Both the position numbers and the translations under genes were made by a program. 64,000 nt of DNA from an uncultured Oscillospiraceae bacterium (GTDB lineage: Bacteria > Bacillota > Clostridia > Oscillospirales > Oscillospiraceae): assembly GCA_947629915.1 (NCBI GenBank), contig CANRFN010000019.1, forward strand, positions 1 to 64,000, in the 5' to 3' direction. The notes beneath the pieces are model-generated. The model saw nothing but the letters and a program-made list of their open reading frames with translations. It was not told where the DNA came from and did no database searches. Position 1 is the first letter of the stretch. Each line of letters starts with the position of its first letter. Shown here piece by piece: positions 9,982 to 25,387 of this stretch.

Positions 9982-10674
9982 TTGGACGAACTCTGTACCG
10001 CGCTGATCGCGCTCGCCAATGCCCCGATGCAGCCCATGCCGTCTTCCCTCTGCAGGAGCGGCACCAGTCAGTACACATTCCGCAGCGGTGTGAACGAGCT
10101 CTTCAACGCCCGTCTCGCACCGGACAGGCCTCCCCTCTTCCCGGAGTCCGATGTTCTTCTGCGCCGGGCCTCCGATCAACTGGCAGACCGGCGGGAGCTC
10201 TTCGGCAGTTTGAAGATCAGCGAGGAAATCCAGGCCATGCACAAGAGCGTTCTGGCCCGGATAAAAACCCTGCAAAAGCCGCCGTATTCCAATGAACAGG
10301 CCATGGCATACTACGATGTTCTCCTCACCTTGTGTCTGCTGCGCACCAACGCCACCCACTGCCGGAACAAAAAGGGCCACACCATCATGCCCATGTCTCT
10401 CGGCATCGATCTCGCCGCTGTGGCAGAGTGGATTCGATCTCTGCAGGAGCGGAGCCGCATATGCATGGAGAAGCTGTGGGGTAAGGAAGCTGTATCCGAG
10501 ACCGGAAGTGACCCCATCACCGCCCTGATTCACCTCCTGCAGATCACGCCCCGCGGCCTGCAGGCCCGCATGGTCCTGGAGGACCTTCTGGAGACGGCGT
10601 ACATGGCGGACCTGCTGATTTCCGCCATGACCTTACATGAAGCAAGGAGGGAGCAAAACGGCTATGCCTGGTGA
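9982..10674 (+). CDS. Unknown protein, first gene of a two-gene operon
   Basis: I do not recognise this 230-aa, mostly helical protein. It starts at TTG 9982, supported by AAGGAGGG at 9968-9975. It contains no signal peptide and no clear membrane segment. A central block includes SLKISEEIQAMHKSVLARIK and a leucine/cysteine-rich helix (YYDVLLTLCLLRTNATHC, about residues 113-130). Its last codons overlap the start of the next gene by 11 bp, so the two are probably translated together and may act as a pair. GC and codon use look like the neighbours, with no sign of very recent transfer. Confidence 0.7.
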   Translation: MDELCTALIALANAPMQPMPSSLCRSGTSQYTFRSGVNELFNARLAPDRPPLFPESDVLLRRASDQLADRRELFGSLKISEEIQAMHKSVLARIKTLQKPPYSNEQAMAYYDVLLTLCLLRTNATHCRNKKGHTIMPMSLGIDLAAVAEWIRSLQERSRICMEKLWGKEAVSETGSDPITALIHLLQITPRGLQARMVLEDLLETAYMADLLISAMTLHEARREQNGYAW

Positions 10675-11704
10675 AGAAGTACAACTCATCTTCAGCATTA
10701 CCAAAGAGGCAGTGGAACTGGTGAAAAAGGGGGAGCTTGTGTTCAGCAAAGGCGGTGTCCGCCGGCACGATGGCACGCTGTTTGAACTTGCAAAGCCCGC
10801 GCTGCAGCCGGTTTTGCCCGGTCCGCCCACCTTGCCAAACCGGCTGATTCGGTATCTCGTGCGCCAGAACGAATCTCAGTCCTCCCTTCTCAGTGATCTC
10901 AACTACAAGATGGACCTCTCCTTGCAGCAGCTTCAGAACGTTGAGAAGTCCCTCTCCTCCATCGCCAGCATCAACGCCCTGAGTTGGGCCAACTGTGCAT
11001 TCAGCGTTGCCAACTGCGGCATCTCGGTGGCCGGGTTTGCCATGGTCCTGCAGCAGATGGACCGCCTCTCCGGCCAGGTGAGGGCATTGGCGGAGCTGGT
11101 AGACCAGGCGATTCGCAGCGATCTCATGGAGCGCTTCGACCGATATTGCCTGAACCTGCGGTCCTGCCTGCACAGCCTGGAGCTAGCCAGTTTCGATGCC
11201 GCATACTCTCTCACCCTTGAGAAGCATCTCAACGAGGCCGCCGCCTTTATGAACCGCCTGATCCGGGACATCCAGCAGTCCTGCGCCTACACGGATCTGG
11301 CCGTAAGCATGCTCTTCGGGATGGCCACCCCCTTCGCCCATGTGGTGCGGGAGTACTCGGTGAAGTACTTCTACGCCCACCAGTCTGAGCCGGCCAACCT
11401 CCAGTCCTGGATCTCCGTTCTGGCACAGCTCATCGCCTGGGACTTCACCAAGGCCCTGAAGCGCCACATGCTGTACTCCCACCTGGAGCTCACCATGGAG
11501 CAGCGGTACACGGCCTATTCCGGCGGGTACACCGCAGCCCAGCTGCAGTTGGGCAATCTGGCGTTCAGCCAGGCGCTCACAAAAGCCCTGCCGGAGAAGA
11601 CGTACATCACCCTGGACAAGGTCATCGCAGACGACCTGGATGCCGGCAAGTACATCGTCCAAGGGGATCGGGTGGGCATCCCCATCACGCAAATCCGGCA
11701 ATAG
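10664..11704 (+). CDS. Unknown protein with central hydrophobic segment flanked by helices
   Basis: This 346-aa protein is not recognised by name. ATG 10664 is preferred to ATG 10637 because AAGGAGGG at 10643-10650 sits 13 bases before it. A helical, heptad-like stretch (LLSDLNYKMDLSLQQLQNVE, about residues 75-95) leads into a 25-30 residue hydrophobic, small-residue-rich segment (CAFSVANCGISVAGFAMVL, about 107-125). A second helix with MDRLSGQVRALAELVDQAIR follows. This amphipathic-hydrophobic-amphipathic plan is seen in membrane-inserting helical proteins and in some defence effectors; that reading is inference. The remainder is helical with no catalytic motif that I can see. It is the second gene of the 9982-11704 operon and is followed by a terminator. 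Confidence 0.7.
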   Translation: MPGEEVQLIFSITKEAVELVKKGELVFSKGGVRRHDGTLFELAKPALQPVLPGPPTLPNRLIRYLVRQNESQSSLLSDLNYKMDLSLQQLQNVEKSLSSIASINALSWANCAFSVANCGISVAGFAMVLQQMDRLSGQVRALAELVDQAIRSDLMERFDRYCLNLRSCLHSLELASFDAAYSLTLEKHLNEAAAFMNRLIRDIQQSCAYTDLAVSMLFGMATPFAHVVREYSVKYFYAHQSEPANLQSWISVLAQLIAWDFTKALKRHMLYSHLELTMEQRYTAYSGGYTAAQLQLGNLAFSQALTKALPEKTYITLDKVIADDLDAGKYIVQGDRVGIPITQIRQ

Positions 11705-11710
11705 TGATAG

Positions 11711-11749
11711 AGCCCAAGGGATCGGATCTGCGGTCCCTTGGGCTTTCCT
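11711..11749 (+). terminator. Terminator of the unknown two-gene operon
   Basis: AGCCCAAGGGA (11711-11721) pairs with TCCCTTGGGCT (11734-11744), followed by TTCCTT. Confidence 0.75.
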
Positions 11750-11807
11750 TGCTCCCTCTGTCTGACATTTTCCTCACCCATTGTCCGTCTCTGTGCGATT
11801 TTTGGCC

Positions 11808-11836
11808 TTTTCAAGTGGGCGGCGGTGGGTTATAAT
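11808..11836 (+). promoter_or_regulatory. Promoter of the GTPase-NYN fusion gene
   Basis: TTTTCA (11808-11813), 17 bp and a perfect TATAAT (11831-11836); the gene starts about 45 bases after the expected transcription start. Confidence 0.65.
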
Positions 11837-11887
11837 CTCAGGGAGAGAACAACCGTACCGGGAGAACCGGCAGGAGATGAGCAATGG

Positions 11888-14482
11888 ATGGAAGATCACA
11901 ATGCCCCGCAGCGCAGACTGGTAGCCGGCCTGCTGGCCCATGTAGACTCCGGCAAGACCACCCTCACTGAAGCCATGCTGTATCGCACCGGCAGCATCCG
12001 CCGCCTGGGGAGGGTGGACCACAAGGACGCCTTTCTGGACACCAGCAACCTGGAAAAGGAGCGGGGCATCACCATCTTCTCCAAGCAGGCGATCCTGCGC
12101 CGGGGAGACCTGGAGCTCACCCTGGTGGACACCCCAGGCCATGTGGACTTCTCCGCGGAGATGGAGCGCACCCTGCAGGTGCTGGACTACGCGGTGCTGC
12201 TGGTGAGCGCGGCAGACGGCGTACAGGGCCACACGGAGACCCTCTGGAGACTGCTGCACCGCCACGGCGTGCCGGTCTTTCTCTTTGTGAACAAGATGGA
12301 CCAGCCCGGCGCAGACAAGGCCGCCGTCCTGGCCCAGCTGCAGGAGCGGCTCAGCGATGCCTGCACAGACTTCACCGCCGATCCCGCTGAGATCGCCGAA
12401 CAGGCCGCCCTCTGCGATGAGTCTCTCATGGAGCAGTACCTGGAGACCGGCGAGCTCTCCGATTTCGATCTGGCCTCCCTCATCGCAGAGCGCAAGCTGT
12501 TCCCGGTGTACTTCGGCTCCGCTCTGAAAGTGCAAGGCGTGGACGAGCTGCTGGACGGCCTCACCCAATACACCCTGGACCCGGACTGGCCCAGCCAGTT
12601 TGCCGCCCGAGTATACAAGATCACCCGGGATGAGAAGGGAGACCGGCTCACCTGGCTCAAGGTAACCGGAGGCCAGCTGAAAGTCCGGGAGATCATAAAG
12701 GGACCGGACTGGGAGGAGAAAGTGAACCAGATCCGGCTGTACTCCGGCAACCGCTTCACCCCGGCAGATGTGGCTCCGGCTGGCACCTGCTGCGCCGTCT
12801 CCGGCCTCAGCCAGACCCGCGCCGGCCAAGGACTGGGCGGCGAGGAGGACTGGGAAGGGCCTGAACTGGAGCCGGTTCTCACCTATCAGGTGCTGCCGCC
12901 GGACGGCATGGACCAGCACACCCTGCTGCAGAAGCTGCGGATCCTGGAGGAGGAAGATCCCCAGCTGCAGGTGGAGTGGAATGAGACCCTGGAGGAGATC
13001 CGAGTCCGCCTCATGGGAGAGGTCCAGTTGGAGATTCTCTCCCGTCTCATGCTGCAGCGCTTTGACACCGCCATCACCTTCGGCCCCGGCAGCATTCTCT
13101 ACCAGGAGACCATCGCCGCTCCCGCAGAGGGCGTGGGCCACTTTGAGCCCCTCCGTCACTACGCAGAGGTGCACCTGCTGCTGGAGCCATTGGGACGGGG
13201 TGAGGGCCTGCAGATCGCCTCCGCCTGCTCCGAGGACATTCTCAGCGGGCACTGGCAGAGATTGATTCTCACCCACCTCATCGAGAAGACCCATGTGGGG
13301 GTGCTCACCGGCTCTCCCATCACCGACATGCGCATCACCCTTCTGGTGGGACGGGCCCACCTGAAGCACACCGAGGGCGGAGACTTCCGGCAGGCCACCT
13401 ATCGTGCGGTGCGCCAAGGCCTCATGTGTGCCAAAAACGTGCTGCTGGAGCCCTGGTACAGCTACCGTCTGGACATCCCCTCAGACTGCGTGGGCCGTGC
13501 CATGACAGACCTCCAGCGTATGGGCGGCACGGTGGAACCGCCGGAGACCGCAGGCGACACCGCCATTCTCCGGGGCACGGTGCCGGTCTCCGCCTGCACC
13601 GGATATTGGACAGACGTGGCAGCCTATTCCGGCGGGCGGGGCCGATTCTCCTGTGAGCTGGACGGATACCGCCCCTGCCACAACCAGGATGAGGTAGTGG
13701 CCGCCATCGGCTATGACCCCGAAGCAGACCTGGCCAATCCCCCGGGGTCTGTCTTCTGTGCCCATGGTGCGGGATACACCGTCCCCTGGAACGAGGTCCG
13801 GGGCCACATGCACCTGGACTCCGGCTGGCGGGAGACGGCAAAGTCCATTCAGGACACCCCGCTCCCCCCGCCCCGCCGCACCATGTCCTACGGCTCCCAG
13901 CTGGCCCTGGACAAGGAGCTGGAGGCCATCTTCTCCAAGGTGTATGGGCCGGTAAAGCCGCGGGCATTCCGGCCCACCCCGAAGGCGGCCCCGCCCAAGG
14001 AGAAGCCCTGGAAAGGCCTGAAGCTCCGGGACGGCGAGGACTACCTCCTGGTGGACGGGTACAACATCATCAACGCCTGGCCGGATCTGAAGACGCTGTC
14101 CAAGACGGACCTGGACGGCGCCCGGATGAGGCTGGTGGACCGGCTGAAAAACTACCAGGGCTGGACGAAGCGCAATGTGATCGTGGTCTTCGATGCCTAC
14201 CGGGTGAAGAACAACCCCGGCAGTGTGGAGCAGCACGGCGAGGTCTCTGTGGTGTACACGAAAGAGGCGGAGACCGCGGACATGTATATTGAGAAGGTGA
14301 CCTACGCCCTCCACAGGGAGAAGAAAGAGCACCGGGTGCGGGTGGCCACCTCAGACGGCCTGGAGCAGCTCATCATCCTGGGCCACGGGGCTGTGCGGGT
14401 CCCGGCGGCGGAGCTGGCCTTTGAGCTGGACCAGGTGGAGGCGGAGATCCGGGACGCCATCAAACCCGGCATTGGCCGCTGA
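11888..14482 (+). CDS. TetM/EF-G-class translational GTPase fused to a Rae1/YacP-type NYN endonuclease
   Basis: An 864-aa fusion. Residues 1 to about 650 form a translational GTPase of the ribosomal-protection (TetM/TetO) class: G1 AHVDSGKTT near 18, G2 EKERGITI, G3 DTPGH near 83, G4 NKMD near 137, then domains II-V. The tip loop of domain IV, where TetM carries the YSPVS tetracycline-displacing motif, reads HLKHTEGGDFR and appears shortened, so tetracycline resistance is doubtful. Residues from about 718 form a complete NYN domain closely resembling B. subtilis Rae1 (YacP), a ribosome-associated A-site mRNA endonuclease. It shows LLVDGYNIINAW, VVFDAY, TKEAETAD and VATSD with their conserved acidic residues. 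Inference: a factor that enters the A site and cuts mRNA on stalled ribosomes. ATG 11888 has AGGAG 11 bases upstream. It is monocistronic, with a strong terminator. Confidence 0.88.
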   Translation: MEDHNAPQRRLVAGLLAHVDSGKTTLTEAMLYRTGSIRRLGRVDHKDAFLDTSNLEKERGITIFSKQAILRRGDLELTLVDTPGHVDFSAEMERTLQVLDYAVLLVSAADGVQGHTETLWRLLHRHGVPVFLFVNKMDQPGADKAAVLAQLQERLSDACTDFTADPAEIAEQAALCDESLMEQYLETGELSDFDLASLIAERKLFPVYFGSALKVQGVDELLDGLTQYTLDPDWPSQFAARVYKITRDEKGDRLTWLKVTGGQLKVREIIKGPDWEEKVNQIRLYSGNRFTPADVAPAGTCCAVSGLSQTRAGQGLGGEEDWEGPELEPVLTYQVLPPDGMDQHTLLQKLRILEEEDPQLQVEWNETLEEIRVRLMGEVQLEILSRLMLQRFDTAITFGPGSILYQETIAAPAEGVGHFEPLRHYAEVHLLLEPLGRGEGLQIASACSEDILSGHWQRLILTHLIEKTHVGVLTGSPITDMRITLLVGRAHLKHTEGGDFRQATYRAVRQGLMCAKNVLLEPWYSYRLDIPSDCVGRAMTDLQRMGGTVEPPETAGDTAILRGTVPVSACTGYWTDVAAYSGGRGRFSCELDGYRPCHNQDEVVAAIGYDPEADLANPPGSVFCAHGAGYTVPWNEVRGHMHLDSGWRETAKSIQDTPLPPPRRTMSYGSQLALDKELEAIFSKVYGPVKPRAFRPTPKAAPPKEKPWKGLKLRDGEDYLLVDGYNIINAWPDLKTLSKTDLDGARMRLVDRLKNYQGWTKRNVIVVFDAYRVKNNPGSVEQHGEVSVVYTKEAETADMYIEKVTYALHREKKEHRVRVATSDGLEQLIILGHGAVRVPAAELAFELDQVEAEIRDAIKPGIGR

Positions 14483-14493
14483 AGAGACAGCAA

Positions 14494-14540
14494 AAATTGC
14501 CCAGGACATATGTGCAGATGCACATATGTCCTGGGCGCTA
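14494..14540. terminator. Bidirectional terminator, 17-bp stem
   Basis: A perfect inverted repeat, GCCCAGGACATATGTGC (14499-14515) and its complement (14520-14536), separates the GTPase gene from the convergent DUF5131 gene. The minus strand continues AATTTTTG. Confidence 0.85.
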
Positions 14541-14547
14541 CTTTGTC

Positions 14548-15456
14548 TCAGAAGGTATCCGTCTGGGAGAAGCCGCTGCCCTTCCCCATGCACTTGCCGC
14601 ACCGGGAGCAGCCGTTGCAGGTGGGCCGCATGCCGCAGGTCTCGCAGCGGAGGCTGAAGTACGGGCGATACAGCTCCGCCTCCGGGATGGGGAGGCCCCA
14701 GTTGTCTCGGAGGTCGAAAGACATGGGCCTGCCCTGAAAGAACAGGTTTGCCTTGTACGCCTGCTGGCTCTGGAGCCCGCTGCCCTCGATCTTGTACAGC
14801 TTTCCGTCCTTGATGAAGCGCCGACCGGTGCCGAGAAAGGCGAAAGTGACGTTGTTGTCCACGCACTCCTGATGCAGGCTCTGCACCCAGGCAAAGTCCA
14901 GGGGCCGGGCGCCATCGTAGTTCTCGCCGTCCACGATCACCCGCTCAATCTGTCCGGTCTCCAGGTATTGCCGCATGGACACCGGGCCGATGAAGGGGGC
15001 GCACATCACGCCTTTGTGGCGGAATGGCAGGTCCAGCAGGATGGGCAGTCTCTCATCCGCACGGCGCTGGTTCTCCGTGGAGACGTTGAAGAAGATGTTC
15101 TCCCAGCCGTCTCCCCAGTTGTCTGGCAGGTGGTCTGCCACCCGCTCCGGCCGCTTCGTGAGGAGAAAGAAGATCACATCCCGGCGCTGGTCCATGATGT
15201 CCCAGGCCTCATCCCGCCAGGGATCCGCCTCCTCCAGGAAGAAGTCCGATGTCATGCAAACCCGGATCATCTCCCCGCTCTTGACCTTGTATGCGCCCTT
15301 CCGATCCTTCTGCAGCGGGTATGTAAAGCCGGCGGCGGTGCGGTAGATGTCTGCGCCGTTCTTGCCCCGGAGGCCGTCCAGAAAGTACATGTAGCAGTGC
15401 TCGCAGCCCTCGCTCTTCTTCCGGCAGCCGTGCCAGGGATTCCAGATGTCGTGCAT
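14548..15456 (-). CDS. DUF5131/phage Gp37-Gp68-like protein
   Basis: This 302-aa protein starts with the family signature WNPWHGC and a cysteine pair in GCEHCY (about residues 6-22), and ends with a zinc-ribbon-like CETCGMRPTCNGCSRCGKC (about 270-292). DUF5131 (phage Gp37/Gp68) members are found in phages and bacterial chromosomes, and their clustered cysteines suggest a metal or Fe-S centre; a radical-SAM-like role has been suggested for the fold but is unproven. The extra C-terminal cysteine cluster is notable. It lies 9 bp after the DUF815 ATPase gene and is surely cotranscribed with it. The function of the pair is unknown. Confidence 0.8.
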   Translation of the reverse strand: MHDIWNPWHGCRKKSEGCEHCYMYFLDGLRGKNGADIYRTAAGFTYPLQKDRKGAYKVKSGEMIRVCMTSDFFLEEADPWRDEAWDIMDQRRDVIFFLLTKRPERVADHLPDNWGDGWENIFFNVSTENQRRADERLPILLDLPFRHKGVMCAPFIGPVSMRQYLETGQIERVIVDGENYDGARPLDFAWVQSLHQECVDNNVTFAFLGTGRRFIKDGKLYKIEGSGLQSQQAYKANLFFQGRPMSFDLRDNWGLPIPEAELYRPYFSLRCETCGMRPTCNGCSRCGKCMGKGSGFSQTDTF

Positions 15457-16972: not shown

Positions 16973-19900
16973 TCAGGCTGGTTCTTCCTCGTCCTCCGCA
17001 TCCTTCTTCAGATACTGGGTGAGGATCGCCGCCATCTCGGCCCGGGTGGCGTGTCCCTTGGGATCCATGAGCTCGTTGTCCTTGCCGGTGATCACATCCC
17101 GCATATAGCACCAGGCCACTCCCTCATAGGCCCATTCGGAGATCTGGTCCAGATCGTTGAAGGGCATGCGGAACATCCAGGTGCCGGTAAAGCCGCCGTC
17201 TCCGTACTTTTTCTCATACTGATAGATCATGGTGGCCATCTGTTCCCGGGTGATGGTGTCCTCGGGGCCGAAGCTGCCGTCTCCGCAGCCGGACACAATG
17301 CCCTCGCTGGTGGCCCAGCGGATTGCCTCGGCATACCAGACCTCTTCGCTCACATCGGAATAGGTCATGTAGAAGTTCACCACGGGCTTGCCCTTTAGAT
17401 TCCAGAGCAACGTCACCATCTGAGCGCGGGTGACGGTGCCATCCGGTTCAAAGAGACCTTTCTCATTGCCGTTCATAAGGCCATGGCTGATGACGTAGTC
17501 TGTGTGCTCGTGGTACCAGGCAGTGGGATCCAGGTCCGGGAAGGACAGCGTAGAGCACTTCACGAAGGTGGCCTGTACGGAAGCGGCGCCCTTGTGCATG
17601 GTGAAGGTATAGGTGCCGTCCTGGTTGTCTTGGAGTGCAACCGCCTTGCCGTCCTGATCCAAGACAGTGAGTGCATCCAGATGATAGCCGTCCTCCGCCT
17701 TTACGGTGAGCTTCACGCTGGCGCCCTCCGCAGCACGCTCGGGATCCGCTGTTACACTGCCGCCCGTAGTTGCCGCAGGGACCGTGATGCTGTATGTGGC
17801 AGGCGCGGGATTGGAGGGCGTTGCGGGCGTAGAGGGAATGACAGGCGTAGTGCTGGGTGTGGGAGTAGGCGTTGGTGTAGGTTCGGGCTCACTGTATTGG
17901 ATCACGGCAAAAGTGGCATTTACCGTGACGTCTCCTGCCGGCATGGTGAACGTATATTTGCCGTTGCCAACGTATGTCCAGGACACCAATTCGCCGTCCG
18001 GGCCCACCACGCCGAGTGTGTACAGGCGGAACCCGGCATGTGGGGTAACCGTGAGAGTAACGGTCTCCCCTTGTTTGGCCGAGGTGGTGCTTGCCGTAAC
18101 CGTGCCATAGCTGCCAGCCTGCACCGTGATGGTGTAGCTGGGCTCTTCAACTGCTTGTCTGCACCCGATGGCATAGGTGCCGGAATGCTTCACATGGAGC
18201 ACGATGGCATTGTCCCGCACCTCGATGTACTCTCCGTCTGCGTTGGGCGTAGTGGTTAAGGTCTCCACCGTGCCGTCCGCGCTGCGATATACCACGATGT
18301 TCCCCTCGTCTGGGACCTCATAGGGGATCACAATCTCCAGAACCGTCTTGGTCTCCGCCATGGTCTCTTCGGTGCCGCCATTCTCAGACTTGGCCACCTG
18401 GATATCCAGGAAGGTGAGTTCTGTGTTCTCCCCCGTCTCCTTGCGGATGTCTTCCCCGTGGGTGGCCTGGTTCTCCGGCTTGCTCTCCACGGTAAGGGTT
18501 AGGGTGACGGTGCTGCCGTCCGTCTGTTGGGCCTCCGCCTCTTCTGTGAGGCCACCAACCACCACTTTCGGGGTGTCCTCGCCTTTCACTTCCAGTTTGG
18601 ACTTCACACCCTTTGCCGGCATCGTGACGTTCTCTGTCGTCTCAGAGTCTGTGTCCTCCCCGACCGTAGTGAGGATTGTGGTGGAACTGTCTTCCATCTC
18701 CACCACCAGGTTGTATGTGCCCGGCTCCACATCGGGGAAGACGTAGTTGCCGTTCTCATCTGTGATGGTCTCTGCGACCACTGTATCGCCTTGCATCAAT
18801 TGGACATGGGCGCCGGCTGCCGGGGTGCCATCTTTCTGTACCACCTTGCCGGACACACTGCGCTCGCTGCCGCGCTCGGTCTTGGTGGCACCGCATTCAC
18901 AGATATACGTCTTGTCTGCGGTGGTCTCATCTGTGCTCTGGAGCGTCCAGTCGTGATCTTCACGGGCGAACTCTGCCTCACAGACATCGCAGGTCTTATA
19001 GTGCTGGCCAGTGGCATCATCAACGTGCCAGGTGTCACTCGCATGTGCGGCGCGGGCAAACTCCTCTTTGCACTCATCGCAGGTCTTGTAGTGCTGGCCG
19101 GTGGTATCATCAATGTGCCATGTGTCACTCGCATGAGTGGCGTGGCCAAATTCAGCACCGCAGTCGTCACAGGTCTTATAGTGCTGGCCGGTGGCCTCAT
19201 CAACGTGCCAGGTGTCACTCGCATGAGTTGCGCGGGCAAACTCCTGTCCACAGACATCGCAAGTCTTGTAGTGCTGGCCGGTGGCTGCGTCCGCATGCCA
19301 GGTGGTGCCCTTATGGGCGGCGCGGTCGAATTCTGCACCGCAGACATCGCAGATCTTATAGTGCTGTCCAGTGGCCTCATCGATGTGCCAGGTGTCAGAT
19401 GAATGCTTGGTATGTTCCTGTCCTTCCAGGTAGTACCCGATGGCGTAGGTAGAGAAGTTCTTCACGGTGAGCACAATGGTGTTGTTCGCTGGATCCAGGG
19501 TGATGAATTCGCTCTCTGCGTTCGGTTTCTCGGTAAGAATGTCCACTCCACTGCCGTGGTACCGATATACCTGTACCTCGGTCTTCCCGGTAAAGTCGAA
19601 CGTGAGGATGATGGTAAGCGGTTCCTTGGTGGCAGTGATCGGCTCCTCTTTCAAAGTGCCGCCGGTCTCTGTGATCTTTTCCAGGCCGATCTCATAGAAG
19701 TCCAGATATCTGCCCTTGGCCGCGTCTTGAATCTCCTTCGCATGCGCAGCGGCACTTACGGGTTCTTCTGACACGGTTAGTGTGACGGTAACGGGGTTGC
19801 CCGCCGGATCGGCATGCTCTACTGCCAGGTCGTCCAGGCCGTCCACAGCAAGAAGGGTGTCCTCTGCGTTTGATCCGTCCAGCACCGAGCTGACGTTCTG

Positions 19901-22900
19901 GTCCGGTATGGTGAGATCCTGTTCATTCCCTGTCTCCTCGGTGATCTCCAGCATGGAGGTGGTGACTTTTCCATCTGCCTCAATCACGACTTCGTAGATT
20001 CCCGGCGGAACCTCGCCAAAGACGTAGTTGCCCTCTGCATCCGTGGTAGTCTCATAGGTGGTATTCCCTTGCTTGAGGGTAACAGTAGCGTCCTCTACAG
20101 GGGTATCGTCCTTCTTTACGGTGCCTTTCAGGGTACTGGGGAGCTTGGGGAGAAGCTCTGTCACGGTACCGTATTCGGAGAGGTAGGTCTGGAAGCCGTC
20201 TTTCCCCGGCGCCGGATCAACCCGCTCCCCCTTGGTCCAAACAGTCTCATCGGCCAGTTTGGGCAAGTCCGCCGTGTCCGGAGCAGTGTTATCTCCAAAC
20301 GCACAATTGCGCTCTGCTTTGCCGCCCTCGGTCTGGGTGGGCTCTTCCGTAATGGTCCAGGAGCCCCAATCATGGGTTACCGTGAAGTCCGACGTGACGG
20401 TTGTCTCCGTGTAGTTCGTATTGGCCGGAAATACAACCTGTACTGTGTATTCGCCTGCTTGTGTTGGCTTCGCACTGCTGTACGCGGAGTCGTCTGCACT
20501 CTTTGACTTGTACGTGATAACTGCGGTCTCAGTATCATTGGTAGAGGACGAAAAGACGGGATTCACGCCGGTCTCCCCGCAGGTGTAATCGGCCATTGAA
20601 ACACTGCCGCTTCCTGGGATCTGCAAGACCGTGATGGCGACATGTGTGATTGCGGTGTAGGTATCTCTGGGGGCTGCAAGGATTGTCATCATCTGCAAAT
20701 CGGGACTCTTGTCCCTTGCGGCAATGGCAATGGAATAGGTACCGGCATCCAGGTCTTCGGACACCGTCAGGGTAGCCCCGTCTATTGAGACCTTCCCGTC
20801 TGCCCTATCATAATCAACGATCTCGAACTCGAATGCCCCTTCCGGGTCAGTCTCATCCAGGTAGGCGATATAGGAACTCAGGTCGATGGTCAGGCCGGCA
20901 CCGTAGTTTACCTTCTCCTGCGCGATTGGATCGCCAGACCATGCAAAGCCTTCTTGCCCCACTGCATATAGCACGAGGTCGTCTGTGACTTTCATCGTCT
21001 CATCGAATGCTTCACCATTGATATCATTGGTCTTGGCCCACTTCGCCAGCACGAGATCCCCTTTGGTAGGACTCTCTGGGAAGGCAGCATACCCGTTGTT
21101 ATTGACATACTGGACATTGTACACCGTGTCCTGCAACATGAATGTGACCTTCCGCACTGCTTCATCCTCATCGGTGGTGAGAATTGGGGTTGGATCAGCA
21201 TCGTCCCCGCTGAGCTTTTGTCCCCAAACCTGATCCGCCGGATCTCCCTTCTGAGCACTTTGCAGCTCGTGTGCCACCACACCGGAGGCAAATTGGTCTG
21301 CTGTCATCGGGGTAGCAATGCTGTCCGGGATTAGAGTGTCCAGGTAGTAGCAGTTTTGTATTGTGCCTTGGTACATCAGCTCGCCGCCAAGTTCCTCGAT
21401 GACAAAACCATTGGCCCCTACAACACTGCCTCCATTCGCTTTTGCCGAGACTTCCCCCGTGTTATAGCAGTTTTCTACGAGGCTGTCCTCACCTGCGTTC
21501 ATGCCCACGATGCCGCCTACGCCAGCCATTGATACCCCGTACTCTGACATCCATTCCGGCGCTACACCATCCCCGGAGATCGTGCCCGTGTTATAGCAAT
21601 TACTCACACTGGCGCCATTCTGTCCGGTGATGCCGCCGACACACATGGTACCTGTTACATCGCCGGTGTTGCTGCATTGACCAACACCCTGAGGCAAATC
21701 TGGACGCGACAATTCCGTATAATCGTCCAGCATGCATTGCCCAACAATGCCTCCAGCAACATCCCCTTGGATCGCCCCGGCATTGGTACAGCCATAAATC
21801 GCCCCGCCATAATTATCCGCCGCTATTCCGCCTGCCATAGCGTACTTAGTGCTAAAAGAAGGATCGGTTTCCATCGAGGCAAAAACAGTTCCGGTATTTG
21901 TACACTCCAAAATATATCCATCTTGATTCACTCCTGCGATGCCGCCGGATGCTGGACCAGACACCGCACCGGCATTGGTGCACCGGACAATGCTTCCCTC
22001 CTCCCCATTGTGACCTACAATACCGCCGCTTCTGCCACCATCGTTATTGCTGTCAGCGTTATGGACAATTCCGGTAAAGGAACAGTCCTCTATCGTCCCT
22101 CCTTCGTTCTCAGCCGCAATGCCGCCAGTCGATGCCGCTATTTCACTTCTCACAATTCCAGACACACGCAGGTCCCGGACAGTGCCTCCACTTAAGCGGC
22201 CGAAGAGGCCGAAGAGGCCGGCTACCTTGCTGTCACTGTCGTCAATGAACAGCCCGGATATGAGGTGGCCGCGTCCGTCAAAATTGCCGCAGAAAGCATT
22301 GTTTCCGGATCTTGCTGCACCAATCGGCATCCAGGATACCTTCTCTCCGCCGATATCCTCGCCGTAACGATCCGAAAGGTCAATGTCAGCCCCTAAAGCA
22401 AAGCACTGATTCTCACCGTCGTTTTTTTGATTGATGTAATCCCGTAAACTCTCCAGTTGCGTCAGGGTTGAAATGACATATGGATTCCCCTCTGTGCCGT
22501 CTCCGCCGTCAAAATCAAAGACCATGAAGACAATCTTTGCCGTGGCTGTTCTGCCGCCATTGTAGGCTACCAGGATATCAGCGGAGTATATCCCGGCGGT
22601 CAGGTTCGGCTTGGGCTGCACCATCCAGGTTTCCATTGTGTCGCCTGCCTTCACAACCGTTCCGCTGCCGCTGAGGAGGAAGTCCTCCCCCGAGACGGTC
22701 ACTTCAGAAATGTCGGCGGCACAAACGCCCCGGTTTTTGATTGAAATCGGCACAGGGGCTTGTGTGTAATCTAACGTTGCCGTGGAGAACTCCAAGTCTG
22801 TGATTTCCAGCAGATAGTCTGTGATCGGACCTGGTCCTATAATAATGCCGTTGTTTTTGATGATACCGTGCTCTACTATTGTGCCATTGTTTCTAATGGT

Positions 22901-25387
22901 TCCTTTATTTTCCAGTGTTGCATTCGCGTCCACGATCAGTGATCCACCCTCAGGCACGGTAAGTGTCAGCATACGCGAAAGGGAGACATCATGGGTAACA
23001 TGCGCGTCTCCGATCACCTCTCCTTTGTTTTGGTCGATGATGACGCAGTTGCTCGCAGCCGCAGCGTGGAGTGAATTTGCATTTGCCTTTGAACTCTCGT
23101 AGGTGTATTCGATCACGCCGCCATTAATCACATTGTAGCCATCACCAAAGGCGCCCTCTCCTTGTCCGCCGCCGCTGTAAAGCTTGAGGTAGCCATCATT
23201 GATGATAACGGTACCCCTTCCTCCGTTCCATCCTCCATTGCCAATGCATGAGCCGCCTGGGCTATTCTTTGGCTCGGTGACTTTTGCGGTAATGTTGCCG
23301 CCGTTGATGGTAATGGTTCCAGCGGTCTCTGAACGTCCGGCGCCAATCGCTGCCCCGCCATAGTCCAGAACGTTATGCGCGGCTATAAGCGAACCGGTGC
23401 GGCCGGACTGGCAAGTGATCGTGAGCTTGCTTGGGTATTCGACGTTGATCCCTTGCTCTGCAACAAGTTCGCAGCCGTCTTCCAGAACCAGAGTAACATC
23501 GCCATTCACGATGATCCTGTCTTGTATCGTGATATCACCCCGGACGAGATACCACCCAGCCTCCAGCGTGATATCGTGTTCCGTAAGGAGGTACGCGGTG
23601 TCATGGGATTGCTCTTCACCGTGCTCATCAATGTATGGAATCGTTGAGATCGTTACGGTAAAAGAGACCTCTTTGGAAAGTTGAACGGCTCCATTGATGG
23701 TCACCGACACAACTGCCCTGTACGTGCCAGGCTGCAGTCCCGGCTGCGGTTGAATCGTTCCAATTGTGCCAGTAGTAGATGCCGATATACTGCTTTCCCC
23801 TGATTGAACGAAGGTAAAGTCGGTTCCTTGCACCTCTACATCTGTTATCGTAATGGCGCGGGTGCCATTGTTGGATACAGTGACCGCCATCGGCTCTACG
23901 CTGTAATCCTCGCTTTCTTCAGGAAAGCTGGGAACCGAGAGCACCGCACGGACAGCAATGTCGACTTCCCCGCTGACCTCACCGTTGACGAGAACGACGC
24001 CTTCGCCTGTGACTACGCCTTGGTTGTCCAGCCTGGCCCCTTCTTCTATGGTGAGAATGACTCCCTCGGCCACGGTAAGCGTACGTCCAGATGGAACTGT
24101 CAGGGTCACGCCGGACGGGATTGTGACATCCGATGTGATGGTGGGATTGCCGAGGAAGTTCACATTGTTATTACGATCTACGATGATAGCATTATTCTTA
24201 TTGACCGTTTTAGCGCCAATTCCCCGGTCATGGTTTCCTTCCGTGAAAATGACGCCTCCGGTAATATTTATCGTGCTTGTGAAATCACTTGCTCTATGGG
24301 CATAGCCAATTGCATACGCCTGGTTATTTGGTGCGCCTGACTTGGCATGGATCTCACCACCGCTGATGGTGATTGATCCCATTGCTTTCGCCCAGCAGCC
24401 ACATCCAATGCCAGCACCATTTCCGGCACTTTCTGCAGTGACCTTTCCGCCTTTGATAGTAATGGACTGGAACCTTCCGTATTGCTTTGACTTGCTATCG
24501 TTCGCATGTCCCCCGCCAATACCTGCACCATCATTATTGCTACGAGCTACAATAGTACCGCTATTGATGGTGATATTGCCAGCATTGCTGTTATGATCCC
24601 CGCCAATGCCCGCTCCATATTTGCTGCTTGTAGCATACAATGTTCCCTCTCCTTGAATTGTGAGAGATGCACCTTCAAGCACATGGATACCAGCGTATTC
24701 GCTACCACTTTCAAAGCTGTTGACACCTGTCAAATTCAAAGTGACATTGCCTTTTTGAATGTCAAAAGCAGTTCCGCCACTCGTTACAGATACATCACGC
24801 AGTGTGATATTCACCGGGTCTCCTGAGGTGACATTCACCGTGATTGTATTTGTAGAAGATTCCCCTGTCACGGTGTAGTCTCCGCCTGCTGTGATGTTCA
24901 GGGGACCAGTGGACATGTCATGCTCACCGGACAGCGGGGCGATTTCGTTGGACCCCTGTATGCTGTCCAGCGCATACAGTGCGTCTACCGCCGCCATGTA
25001 CCGTGTGATGTCCAAGGCGTCCTGCTCATCGTCAGTCAGCGACAGTCTGGCCTCGTCAATGGCAGACAGCTGTGCTTCTACATCGGTCCGATTCCAGAGC
25101 CCGATGTCTCCGGCATCCGGAAGCGCATCAATCAGCGTCTGCACCTGTTCCATGGCAGACGGTTCCCGGAGCGTGGAGTCATCACCTACGCTGTAAGTCT
25201 CATCTCTTTCTGTTGTTGTCTGATCGAAAAAAGCAGTACCCCCCCCCGAGTGATCACCGAGGGTGCGCTCTGTCTGGTTTCCAGCGGGTGTTCCGCTGTC
25301 CGCTGCCAACGCCCCCACAGGCAGCATGGTAAATACCATCGCCAAGGTCAACAGCGCAGCAAGCCCTTTTTGCCAGGTACGTCTCAC
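16973..25387 (-). CDS. Giant SLH-domain surface protein with beta-helix, GLUG and cysteine-repeat regions
   Basis: A 2804-aa secreted cell-wall protein. A signal peptide (residues 1-29, cut after GALAA) is followed by a run of nine G in the gene (residues about 47-50). Right-handed beta-helix-like repeats cover about 165-480 and 580-760, with GAGIGG turns typical of pectin-lyase folds. GLUG-type repeats cover about 956-1360 (GGIAGVN, GGIVGHN). Carboxypeptidase-regulatory/Cna-B-like domains lie near 1750-1810 and 2173-2260. Five 30-aa CxxC/His repeats lie at 1995-2144. Two InlB-like bacterial repeat domains flank a Pro-Thr linker (about 2410-2610). Three SLH domains (2610-2790) bind secondary wall polymer. 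The GTG start has AAGGAGG 7 bases upstream. The likely role is adhesion or surface display; its ligand is unknown. It is a tandem paralogue of the gene at 25828-30504. Confidence 0.92.
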   Translation of the reverse strand: MRRTWQKGLAALLTLAMVFTMLPVGALAADSGTPAGNQTERTLGDHSGGGTAFFDQTTTERDETYSVGDDSTLREPSAMEQVQTLIDALPDAGDIGLWNRTDVEAQLSAIDEARLSLTDDEQDALDITRYMAAVDALYALDSIQGSNEIAPLSGEHDMSTGPLNITAGGDYTVTGESSTNTITVNVTSGDPVNITLRDVSVTSGGTAFDIQKGNVTLNLTGVNSFESGSEYAGIHVLEGASLTIQGEGTLYATSSKYGAGIGGDHNSNAGNITINSGTIVARSNNDGAGIGGGHANDSKSKQYGRFQSITIKGGKVTAESAGNGAGIGCGCWAKAMGSITISGGEIHAKSGAPNNQAYAIGYAHRASDFTSTINITGGVIFTEGNHDRGIGAKTVNKNNAIIVDRNNNVNFLGNPTITSDVTIPSGVTLTVPSGRTLTVAEGVILTIEEGARLDNQGVVTGEGVVLVNGEVSGEVDIAVRAVLSVPSFPEESEDYSVEPMAVTVSNNGTRAITITDVEVQGTDFTFVQSGESSISASTTGTIGTIQPQPGLQPGTYRAVVSVTINGAVQLSKEVSFTVTISTIPYIDEHGEEQSHDTAYLLTEHDITLEAGWYLVRGDITIQDRIIVNGDVTLVLEDGCELVAEQGINVEYPSKLTITCQSGRTGSLIAAHNVLDYGGAAIGAGRSETAGTITINGGNITAKVTEPKNSPGGSCIGNGGWNGGRGTVIINDGYLKLYSGGGQGEGAFGDGYNVINGGVIEYTYESSKANANSLHAAAASNCVIIDQNKGEVIGDAHVTHDVSLSRMLTLTVPEGGSLIVDANATLENKGTIRNNGTIVEHGIIKNNGIIIGPGPITDYLLEITDLEFSTATLDYTQAPVPISIKNRGVCAADISEVTVSGEDFLLSGSGTVVKAGDTMETWMVQPKPNLTAGIYSADILVAYNGGRTATAKIVFMVFDFDGGDGTEGNPYVISTLTQLESLRDYINQKNDGENQCFALGADIDLSDRYGEDIGGEKVSWMPIGAARSGNNAFCGNFDGRGHLISGLFIDDSDSKVAGLFGLFGRLSGGTVRDLRVSGIVRSEIAASTGGIAAENEGGTIEDCSFTGIVHNADSNNDGGRSGGIVGHNGEEGSIVRCTNAGAVSGPASGGIAGVNQDGYILECTNTGTVFASMETDPSFSTKYAMAGGIAADNYGGAIYGCTNAGAIQGDVAGGIVGQCMLDDYTELSRPDLPQGVGQCSNTGDVTGTMCVGGITGQNGASVSNCYNTGTISGDGVAPEWMSEYGVSMAGVGGIVGMNAGEDSLVENCYNTGEVSAKANGGSVVGANGFVIEELGGELMYQGTIQNCYYLDTLIPDSIATPMTADQFASGVVAHELQSAQKGDPADQVWGQKLSGDDADPTPILTTDEDEAVRKVTFMLQDTVYNVQYVNNNGYAAFPESPTKGDLVLAKWAKTNDINGEAFDETMKVTDDLVLYAVGQEGFAWSGDPIAQEKVNYGAGLTIDLSSYIAYLDETDPEGAFEFEIVDYDRADGKVSIDGATLTVSEDLDAGTYSIAIAARDKSPDLQMMTILAAPRDTYTAITHVAITVLQIPGSGSVSMADYTCGETGVNPVFSSSTNDTETAVITYKSKSADDSAYSSAKPTQAGEYTVQVVFPANTNYTETTVTSDFTVTHDWGSWTITEEPTQTEGGKAERNCAFGDNTAPDTADLPKLADETVWTKGERVDPAPGKDGFQTYLSEYGTVTELLPKLPSTLKGTVKKDDTPVEDATVTLKQGNTTYETTTDAEGNYVFGEVPPGIYEVVIEADGKVTTSMLEITEETGNEQDLTIPDQNVSSVLDGSNAEDTLLAVDGLDDLAVEHADPAGNPVTVTLTVSEEPVSAAAHAKEIQDAAKGRYLDFYEIGLEKITETGGTLKEEPITATKEPLTIILTFDFTGKTEVQVYRYHGSGVDILTEKPNAESEFITLDPANNTIVLTVKNFSTYAIGYYLEGQEHTKHSSDTWHIDEATGQHYKICDVCGAEFDRAAHKGTTWHADAATGQHYKTCDVCGQEFARATHASDTWHVDEATGQHYKTCDDCGAEFGHATHASDTWHIDDTTGQHYKTCDECKEEFARAAHASDTWHVDDATGQHYKTCDVCEAEFAREDHDWTLQSTDETTADKTYICECGATKTERGSERSVSGKVVQKDGTPAAGAHVQLMQGDTVVAETITDENGNYVFPDVEPGTYNLVVEMEDSSTTILTTVGEDTDSETTENVTMPAKGVKSKLEVKGEDTPKVVVGGLTEEAEAQQTDGSTVTLTLTVESKPENQATHGEDIRKETGENTELTFLDIQVAKSENGGTEETMAETKTVLEIVIPYEVPDEGNIVVYRSADGTVETLTTTPNADGEYIEVRDNAIVLHVKHSGTYAIGCRQAVEEPSYTITVQAGSYGTVTASTTSAKQGETVTLTVTPHAGFRLYTLGVVGPDGELVSWTYVGNGKYTFTMPAGDVTVNATFAVIQYSEPEPTPTPTPTPSTTPVIPSTPATPSNPAPATYSITVPAATTGGSVTADPERAAEGASVKLTVKAEDGYHLDALTVLDQDGKAVALQDNQDGTYTFTMHKGAASVQATFVKCSTLSFPDLDPTAWYHEHTDYVISHGLMNGNEKGLFEPDGTVTRAQMVTLLWNLKGKPVVNFYMTYSDVSEEVWYAEAIRWATSEGIVSGCGDGSFGPEDTITREQMATMIYQYEKKYGDGGFTGTWMFRMPFNDLDQISEWAYEGVAWCYMRDVITGKDNELMDPKGHATRAEMAAILTQYLKKDAEDEEEPA
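16985..17905 (-). repeat. Duplicated 3' cassette, copy 1
   Basis: This encodes the Pro-Thr linker, last InlB-like repeat and three SLH domains. It is nearly identical to 25840-26745 except for the last 30 residues before the stop. The similarity continues, weaker, through the terminator to the promoter at 16831. Confidence 0.85.
18956..19405 (-). repeat. Five tandem 90-bp repeats encoding CxxC/His modules
   Basis: Five consecutive 30-aa units, each with TGQHYKTCDVC-type sequence, a CxxC pair and bracketing histidines (HASDTWH). The pattern suggests one metal or disulfide site per unit. The second surface protein has a single diverged unit near 28850-28990. Confidence 0.9.
25239..25247 (-). 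repeat. G9 homopolymer in the coding strand of the large SLH gene
   Basis: Nine C on the plus strand, read as GGG GGG GGG (Gly-Gly-Gly) just after the signal peptide, in the context DHSGGG. A change of one or two bases would shift the frame near residue 50 and abolish the protein. Confidence 0.9.

Follow-up and report, generated by a model that had tools for sequence, protein, structure and literature searches.

The window analyzed here is a 64,000-nucleotide stretch from an uncultured Oscillospiraceae bacterium (GenBank assembly GCA_947629915.1, contig CANRFN010000019.1, positions 1 to 64,000, forward strand). It contains a gene whose product joins a GTPase of the EF-G/TetM-like kind to a Rae1/YacP-type NYN nuclease domain. 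We consider it likely that this one polypeptide is an endonuclease, timed by guanosine triphosphate (GTP), that acts on ribosomes whose A site is stalled and empty and cuts their messenger RNA (mRNA). The sequence itself shows the domains, with the GTPase motifs and the nuclease acids all intact, no second YacP domain found in the genome, and no Arg-Arg tail of free Rae1 in the fused form; with these a ribosome-tethered mRNA endonuclease is plausible. The original prediction had placed both parts in a single frame, and this was borne out: the frame at 11888 to 14482 (+) is unbroken and encodes one polypeptide of 864 residues, with five EF-G-type Pfam domains in order (residues 13 to 600) and then a YacP-type NYN domain at residues 720 to 858. 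A sequencing join or a frameshift was rejected as the source of the fusion. The parts of the gene are as follows.

11888..14482, + strand: fused gene, 864 amino acids, EF-G/TetM-like GTPase, linker and Rae1/YacP NYN domain (intact frame, Pfam)
11924..12574, + strand: GTPase (G) domain, residues 13-229, with the P-loop AHVDSGKT and RGIT, DTPGH and NKMD intact (Pfam, alignment)
12599..12829, + strand: EF-G domain II, residues 238-314 (Pfam)
12869..13084, + strand: EF-G domain III, residues 328-399 (Pfam)
13091..13432, + strand: EF-G domain IV, residues 402-515 (Pfam)
13349..13423, + strand: domain IV tip motif GRAHLKHTEGGDFRQATYRAVRQGL, residues 488-512, common to fused and unfused members and replacing the TetM YSPVS (alignment)
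13439..13687, + strand: EF-G domain V, residues 518-600 (Pfam)
13676..13813, + strand: subfamily-specific C-terminal extension, residues 597-642, CHN...SVFCAHGAG...W, in fused and unfused members (alignment)
13814..14038, + strand: linker, residues 643-717 (predicted structure, alignment)
14039..14461, + strand: Rae1/YacP NYN domain, residues 718-858, with acids D723, D769, D798 and D823 (Pfam, alignment, structure comparison)

The fused nuclease domain has the YacP-type NYN fold with its acidic site kept. We compared 46 fused domains with 49 free YacP proteins, of which 25 came from 30 loci of the class Clostridia (the other 5 being fusions) and 24 from 29 new loci of other classes, after 4 fusions and one 242-amino-acid frame were dropped. 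The original prediction had seen conserved acidic motifs of Rae1/YacP; the acids D723, D769, D798, and D823 are present in 46/46 fused and 49/49 free proteins and, together with N726, are invariant in all 95. What differs is the tail. In aligned columns, both basic residues of the motif LEK(W/I)RR are found in 47 of the 49 free proteins and in none of the 46 fused ones. A tail of at least 20 residues beyond position 858 is present in 49/49 free and 19/46 fused proteins, and the window's protein ends at residue 864. These columns replace a regular-expression tail count (22/25 free; 1/46, 26/120, and 0/13 in three fused sets), which was too loose because the pattern can match in the preceding helix. 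In the free homologue L214, the tail is W164-R165-R166 of 170 residues; the Rae1 deposited as structure 5mq9 carries the mutation W164L. In Bacillus subtilis, Rae1 R166P turned up among the suppressors of an efp mutant, in a class whose effect, by the authors' conclusion, is to disrupt YacO or Rae1 activity (PMC6613710).

Other positions of the nuclease domain have also changed. Lysine or arginine is found at position 763 in 40/49 free and 4/46 fused proteins, at 779 in 37/49 and 0/46, and at 837 in 49/49 and 32/46; at position 772 the direction is reversed (7/49 free, 46/46 fused). Residue 771 is histidine in 38 of the 49 free proteins and tyrosine in all 46 fused ones. With its tail absent and Y771-K/R772 fixed beside D769, the fused domain may have a different substrate, and a tethered NYN domain could then cut or trim ribosomal RNA (rRNA) or transfer RNA (tRNA) on the ribosome, in quality control or maturation, rather than mRNA. 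We regard this as unlikely: the characterized relative acts on mRNA in translation (PMC10632193, PMC10100781, PMC6613710), and the catalytic acids are unaltered.

The survey of how widespread the fusion is, which the original prediction had proposed, used an evenly drawn sample of 391 genomes of the class. A YacP match was found in 249 of them and the GTPase, at an E value of at most 1e-90, in 166. Frames of at least 780 amino acids, each with a YacP match, were counted as fused, the GTPase frame being used where the YacP frame was not listed; free YacP was a frame of 160 to 220 amino acids, and unfused GTPase one of 640 to 675 amino acids at an E value of at most 1e-140. On these definitions the fusion is present in 130/391 genomes, free YacP in 107, unfused GTPase in 20, and neither in 132. 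Sixteen of the 391 (fragments, contig ends, ambiguous matches) were left out of the cross-table, four with weak or partial GTPase matches (G117, G147, G168, and G249; E values of 1e-91 to 1e-108) were counted for free YacP alone, and loci L108 to L111 are duplicates of genomes already in the set. In one genome (G221, locus L095, 3119-5833) the fusion gene is broken within the GTPase part into two frames of 285 and 540 amino acids; it was counted as fused by frame length and left out of alignments and trees.

Within this sample the fusion takes the place of the free Rae1 gene. Only 1 of the 130 fused genomes (G330) also carries a free YacP; of the 20 unfused-GTPase genomes, 13 carry one, whereas any YacP match is missing from the other 7. 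A Fisher test of 1/130 against 13/20 gives 6e-13, a value that describes the pattern and does not count independent events, because the fused genomes share ancestry. No unfused GTPase was found alongside the fusion in one genome among the matches listed. Second YacP matches in G136, G201, and G242 were rejected, being under the family cutoff (about 21 bits). In B. subtilis, yacO (rlmB) and rae1 are adjacent and cotranscribed (PMC6613710), and free rae1 adjoins rlmB in 20 of the 25 class loci. The window's genome has rlmB without a neighboring YacP, and the fused domain is the sole YacP match found in it.

In the window's own family, sampled as 61 genomes with one per genus, 34 have a YacP domain and 27 have no YacP match. 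In 31 of the 34 the domain belongs to a full fusion frame; the frames of the other 3 are short (602, 266, and 160 amino acids), and the last of them begins 40 bases from a contig end. In the phylum sample, 208/398 genomes have a YacP match, and free and fused frames are both among the matches listed. The best named locus in the scan belongs to a Lawsonibacter metagenome-assembled genome (60%), and others belong to Lachnospiraceae and Oscillospiraceae. Near-full-length fusions are also present in two unannotated faecal records labeled 'Bacteriophage sp.', MT835563.1 (L244, 5001-7535; 57% identity) and MT835514.1 (H32; 50%), which may be mis-binned bacterial DNA.

The trees bear on how the fusion arose. 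Constraining the 46 fused sequences to one clade was compatible with both parts of the protein (P values of the approximately unbiased test, 0.67 for the GTPase and 0.64 for the NYN part), and the constrained tree outscored the free tree for each. The free trees each place one nonfused row among the fused ones, L044 in the GTPase tree and L032 in the NYN tree. Because neither tree rejects a single fused clade, one fusion event is the simplest reading. In genome G243 the YacP is free and the GTPase unfused (L086 and L032), on separate contigs, and this YacP has the fused-type Y771 and K772 and keeps most of a tail; the genome may represent an earlier stage or a split fusion.

Next, we considered what kind of GTPase the nuclease is attached to. 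By its sequence it forms its own subfamily, and the original prediction's label 'ribosomal-protection-type' is too narrow for it. On the tet_protect model (NF012153 of NCBIfam) it scores 416 bits, under the cutoff of 775, which the controls TetO (848 bits) and TetM (879 bits) pass; three unfused kin score 374 to 458 bits, all under 775. On the EF-G model (TIGR00484) it scores 288.6 bits, under the cutoff of 659.4, and the genome has a separate 702-amino-acid EF-G-like gene. Identity is about 30% to TetM/TetO and 40 to 60% to unfused GTPases from clostridia, Bifidobacterium, Collinsella, Neobacillus, Intestinibacter, and Ligilactobacillus. In fused and unfused members alike, the domain IV tip is GRAHxKHTxGGDFRxA where TetM has YSPVS, and a loop is HFEPLRHYAEV where TetM has PFWAS. 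Their extension after domain V, CHN...SVFCxHGAG, has no counterpart in the aligned TetM, TetO, and EF-G rows; in the predicted structure it includes strands 621-625 and 628-632. H494, T495, D499, F500, C597, and S621 are invariant in all 62 rows (46 fused and 16 unfused). A distant Paenibacillus homologue (L134, 35% identity) has a different tip. In the GTPase tree TetM/TetO fall outside, with a branch length of 4.7 changes per column, a figure from a quick method with long branches.

Two observations concern unfused relatives. The actinobacterial GTPases L122, L124, and L128 (Bifidobacterium and Collinsella) are 55 to 60% identical to the window's GTPase, against 43 to 50% for clostridial unfused ones, and this closer identity suggests that the GTPase was transferred on its own, with no nuclease attached. 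On the Ligilactobacillus salivarius plasmid pMP118 (L044, 5526-7917), the unfused GTPase adjoins a plasmid-borne rpsN gene (ribosomal protein S14).

These comparisons also bear on antibiotic ribosome protection, against tetracycline or another A-site drug, with the nuclease adding an RNase-based resistance step as Atkinson and colleagues suggested in 2015. The YSPVS-type loop III of domain IV is indeed absent from the window's GTPase, as the original prediction had said. Its use there as an argument against a tetracycline role carries little weight, because, according to PMC4750697, Tet(M) with S508A, P509A, and V510A is active, and the conformation and length of the loop matter. A resistance role is nevertheless improbable in our view, given the failed tet_protect cutoff, the low identity to TetM/TetO and the different conserved tip, the lack of recurrent neighbors of the resistance-element kind, and the replacement of a free nuclease gene by the fusion.

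How the two halves might work together can be proposed in outline. Known targets of Rae1 are S1025 and bmrCD mRNA. TetM-type factors occupy a site overlapping that of EF-G, extend into the A site, and depend on GTP hydrolysis for their departure (PMC8161019), and Rae1, in papers on B. subtilis, acts on mRNA during translation (PMC10632193, PMC10100781, and PMC6613710). On a paused ribosome, the GTPase body would occupy the factor site, its domain IV inserted into the A site, and would thus supply the docking that free Rae1 may get through its own tail, the putative ribosome dock. With docking provided by the GTPase, that tail would become superfluous and be lost while the chemistry was kept. 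The linker of about 70 residues would give the NYN domain access to the mRNA at one of two places, the A site, once GTP has been hydrolyzed and domain IV has moved out, or the mRNA entry, and ribosomes on the cut mRNA would pass to rescue by transfer-messenger RNA (tmRNA). The window's genome has tmRNA (145 bits), which is ordinary and only consistent with that last step.

The linker is predicted to be flexible, residues 651 to 713 being mostly below 50 in predicted local distance difference test score. Its conserved stretch DKELEAIFSKVYGPVK (residues 675 to 690) overlaps a low-confidence helix at 669 to 686, with I681 in 46/46 fused proteins. A flexible linker would also suit halves that act separately, the GTPase serving as a translocase for back-up or for the relief of pauses, with an NYN domain carried for coexpression only. 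Such a GTPase does occur alone in Clostridia, Bifidobacterium, Collinsella, Neobacillus, and Ligilactobacillus, and H491, aligned with a histidine at the EF-G tip that is important for EF-G, is kept in 45/46 fused and 15/16 unfused members (Ligilactobacillus is among the exceptions). We think this very unlikely, since the fusion is retained in one-third of the class genomes, the linker has a conserved motif of its own, and the fused nuclease is without the tail that free Rae1 retains.

Several points weigh against a GTP-timed mRNA endonuclease. Domain IV and a Rae1-like NYN domain could not plausibly share the A site, so that cleavage after domain IV withdrawal, or elsewhere on the mRNA, has to be assumed. 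The GTPase has its own task, because 7 of the 20 unfused-GTPase genomes lack any YacP match, and the function is dispensable, because the same is true of 27/61 own-family genomes. Losing those basic residues could also have left the fused nuclease unable to act on the ribosome. There is no general charge loss, because basic residues are retained in the fused form at 746 (45/46), 792 (42/46), and 803 (44/46), and the net charge of the NYN core is nearly equal (median, -3 fused and -2 free). Column 833 was rejected as a docking residue, being basic in 22/25 free class members and 8/24 elsewhere. The proline of R166P may merely unfold the tail. If the fused form has a single origin, as it may, the losses of free Rae1 and of the tail may be a single event rather than many. 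Finally, activity of any fused member was not found in the published literature. Given these caveats, we still favor the GTP-timed mRNA endonuclease. More tentatively, and with somewhat more doubt than belief, we propose that an overlooked translational GTPase subfamily took over Rae1 in some ancestor shared by many clostridia and served it as a docking machine, the tail being lost and mRNA cutting becoming GTP gated. If true, this would be the first mRNA endonuclease of the bacterial ribosome to be driven by GTP.

The surroundings of the gene give no function, because the commonest neighbor cluster reaches just 5 of 32 fused and 5 of 21 unfused loci, and there are no recurrent neighbors. The ATG at 11888 is preceded by an AGGAG stretch (by eye), and five of the six homologues listed begin near residue 8; the frame alone would allow an upstream TTG start, giving 914 amino acids. 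An anti-phage defense role was rejected, no PADLOC model having matched, as was a regulatory RNA leader, with no convincing Rfam match in 11000-15000 (best E value, 0.022, under its gathering score). Just upstream lies a 355-amino-acid frame (10637-11704, +) with no Pfam family, and at 16973-25387 (-) a 2,804-amino-acid frame apparently encodes a secreted repeat protein whose C-terminal repeats are of the S-layer type (by eye). Two flanking features are as follows.

11808..11836, + strand: promoter-like site TTTTCA-17-TATAAT, weak (1 found against a shuffled mean of 0.5)
14498..14537, strand not assigned: inverted repeat of 18 pairs, lying between convergent genes and resembling a terminator on either strand (sequence)

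The architecture has been known since 2015, when Atkinson and colleagues described clostridial 'Tet' proteins with a YacP-like NYN domain from ten species and suggested RNase-based resistance (BMC Genomics, PMC4342817). What is new here is that the GTPase is refiled, that the fusion substitutes for free Rae1, and that the Rae1 tail has been lost. A functional study of the fusion was not found in the published literature; Condon 2018, on Rae1 distribution, may mention fusions. A lineage with the tail gone and a GTPase attached parts docking from cutting and makes each testable. Some clostridial 'tetracycline resistance' annotations may also not be resistance genes. On the Agathobacter rectalis plasmid NZ_CP143948.1 (L243, 2974-5775), a fused relative bears the annotation TetM/TetW/TetO/TetS family tetracycline resistance protein, which may be a mistaken call of resistance.

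The Atkinson proteins are the same in kind, an EF-G/Tet-type (EF2-family) translational GTPase with a YacP-like NYN RNase in clostridia; in that paper they are filed as Tet resistance proteins, whereas the proteins described here fail the Tet cutoff, are widespread, stand in for free Rae1, and lack the Rae1 tail. With TetM/TetO the window's protein shares the five EF-G-like domains and the overall fold, and it differs in identity, in the domain IV loops, in the C-terminal extension, and in scoring under the family cutoff. Some unfused and fused kin (Ligilactobacillus salivarius, Monoglobus) carry the public name 'Translation factor GTPase family protein'; they have the same HT-GGDFR tip and SVFC-HGAG extension and form one subfamily with it, whereas the Ligilactobacillus, Bifidobacterium, Collinsella, and Neobacillus proteins have no linker and no NYN domain. 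B. subtilis Rae1/YacP (PDB 5mq8 and 5mq9) shares the NYN fold and all catalytic acids, but it is a free protein of about 170 residues with a FEKWRRG tail (as in homologue L214), whereas the fused domain is without that tail, has lost several basic residues, and has a GTPase attached.
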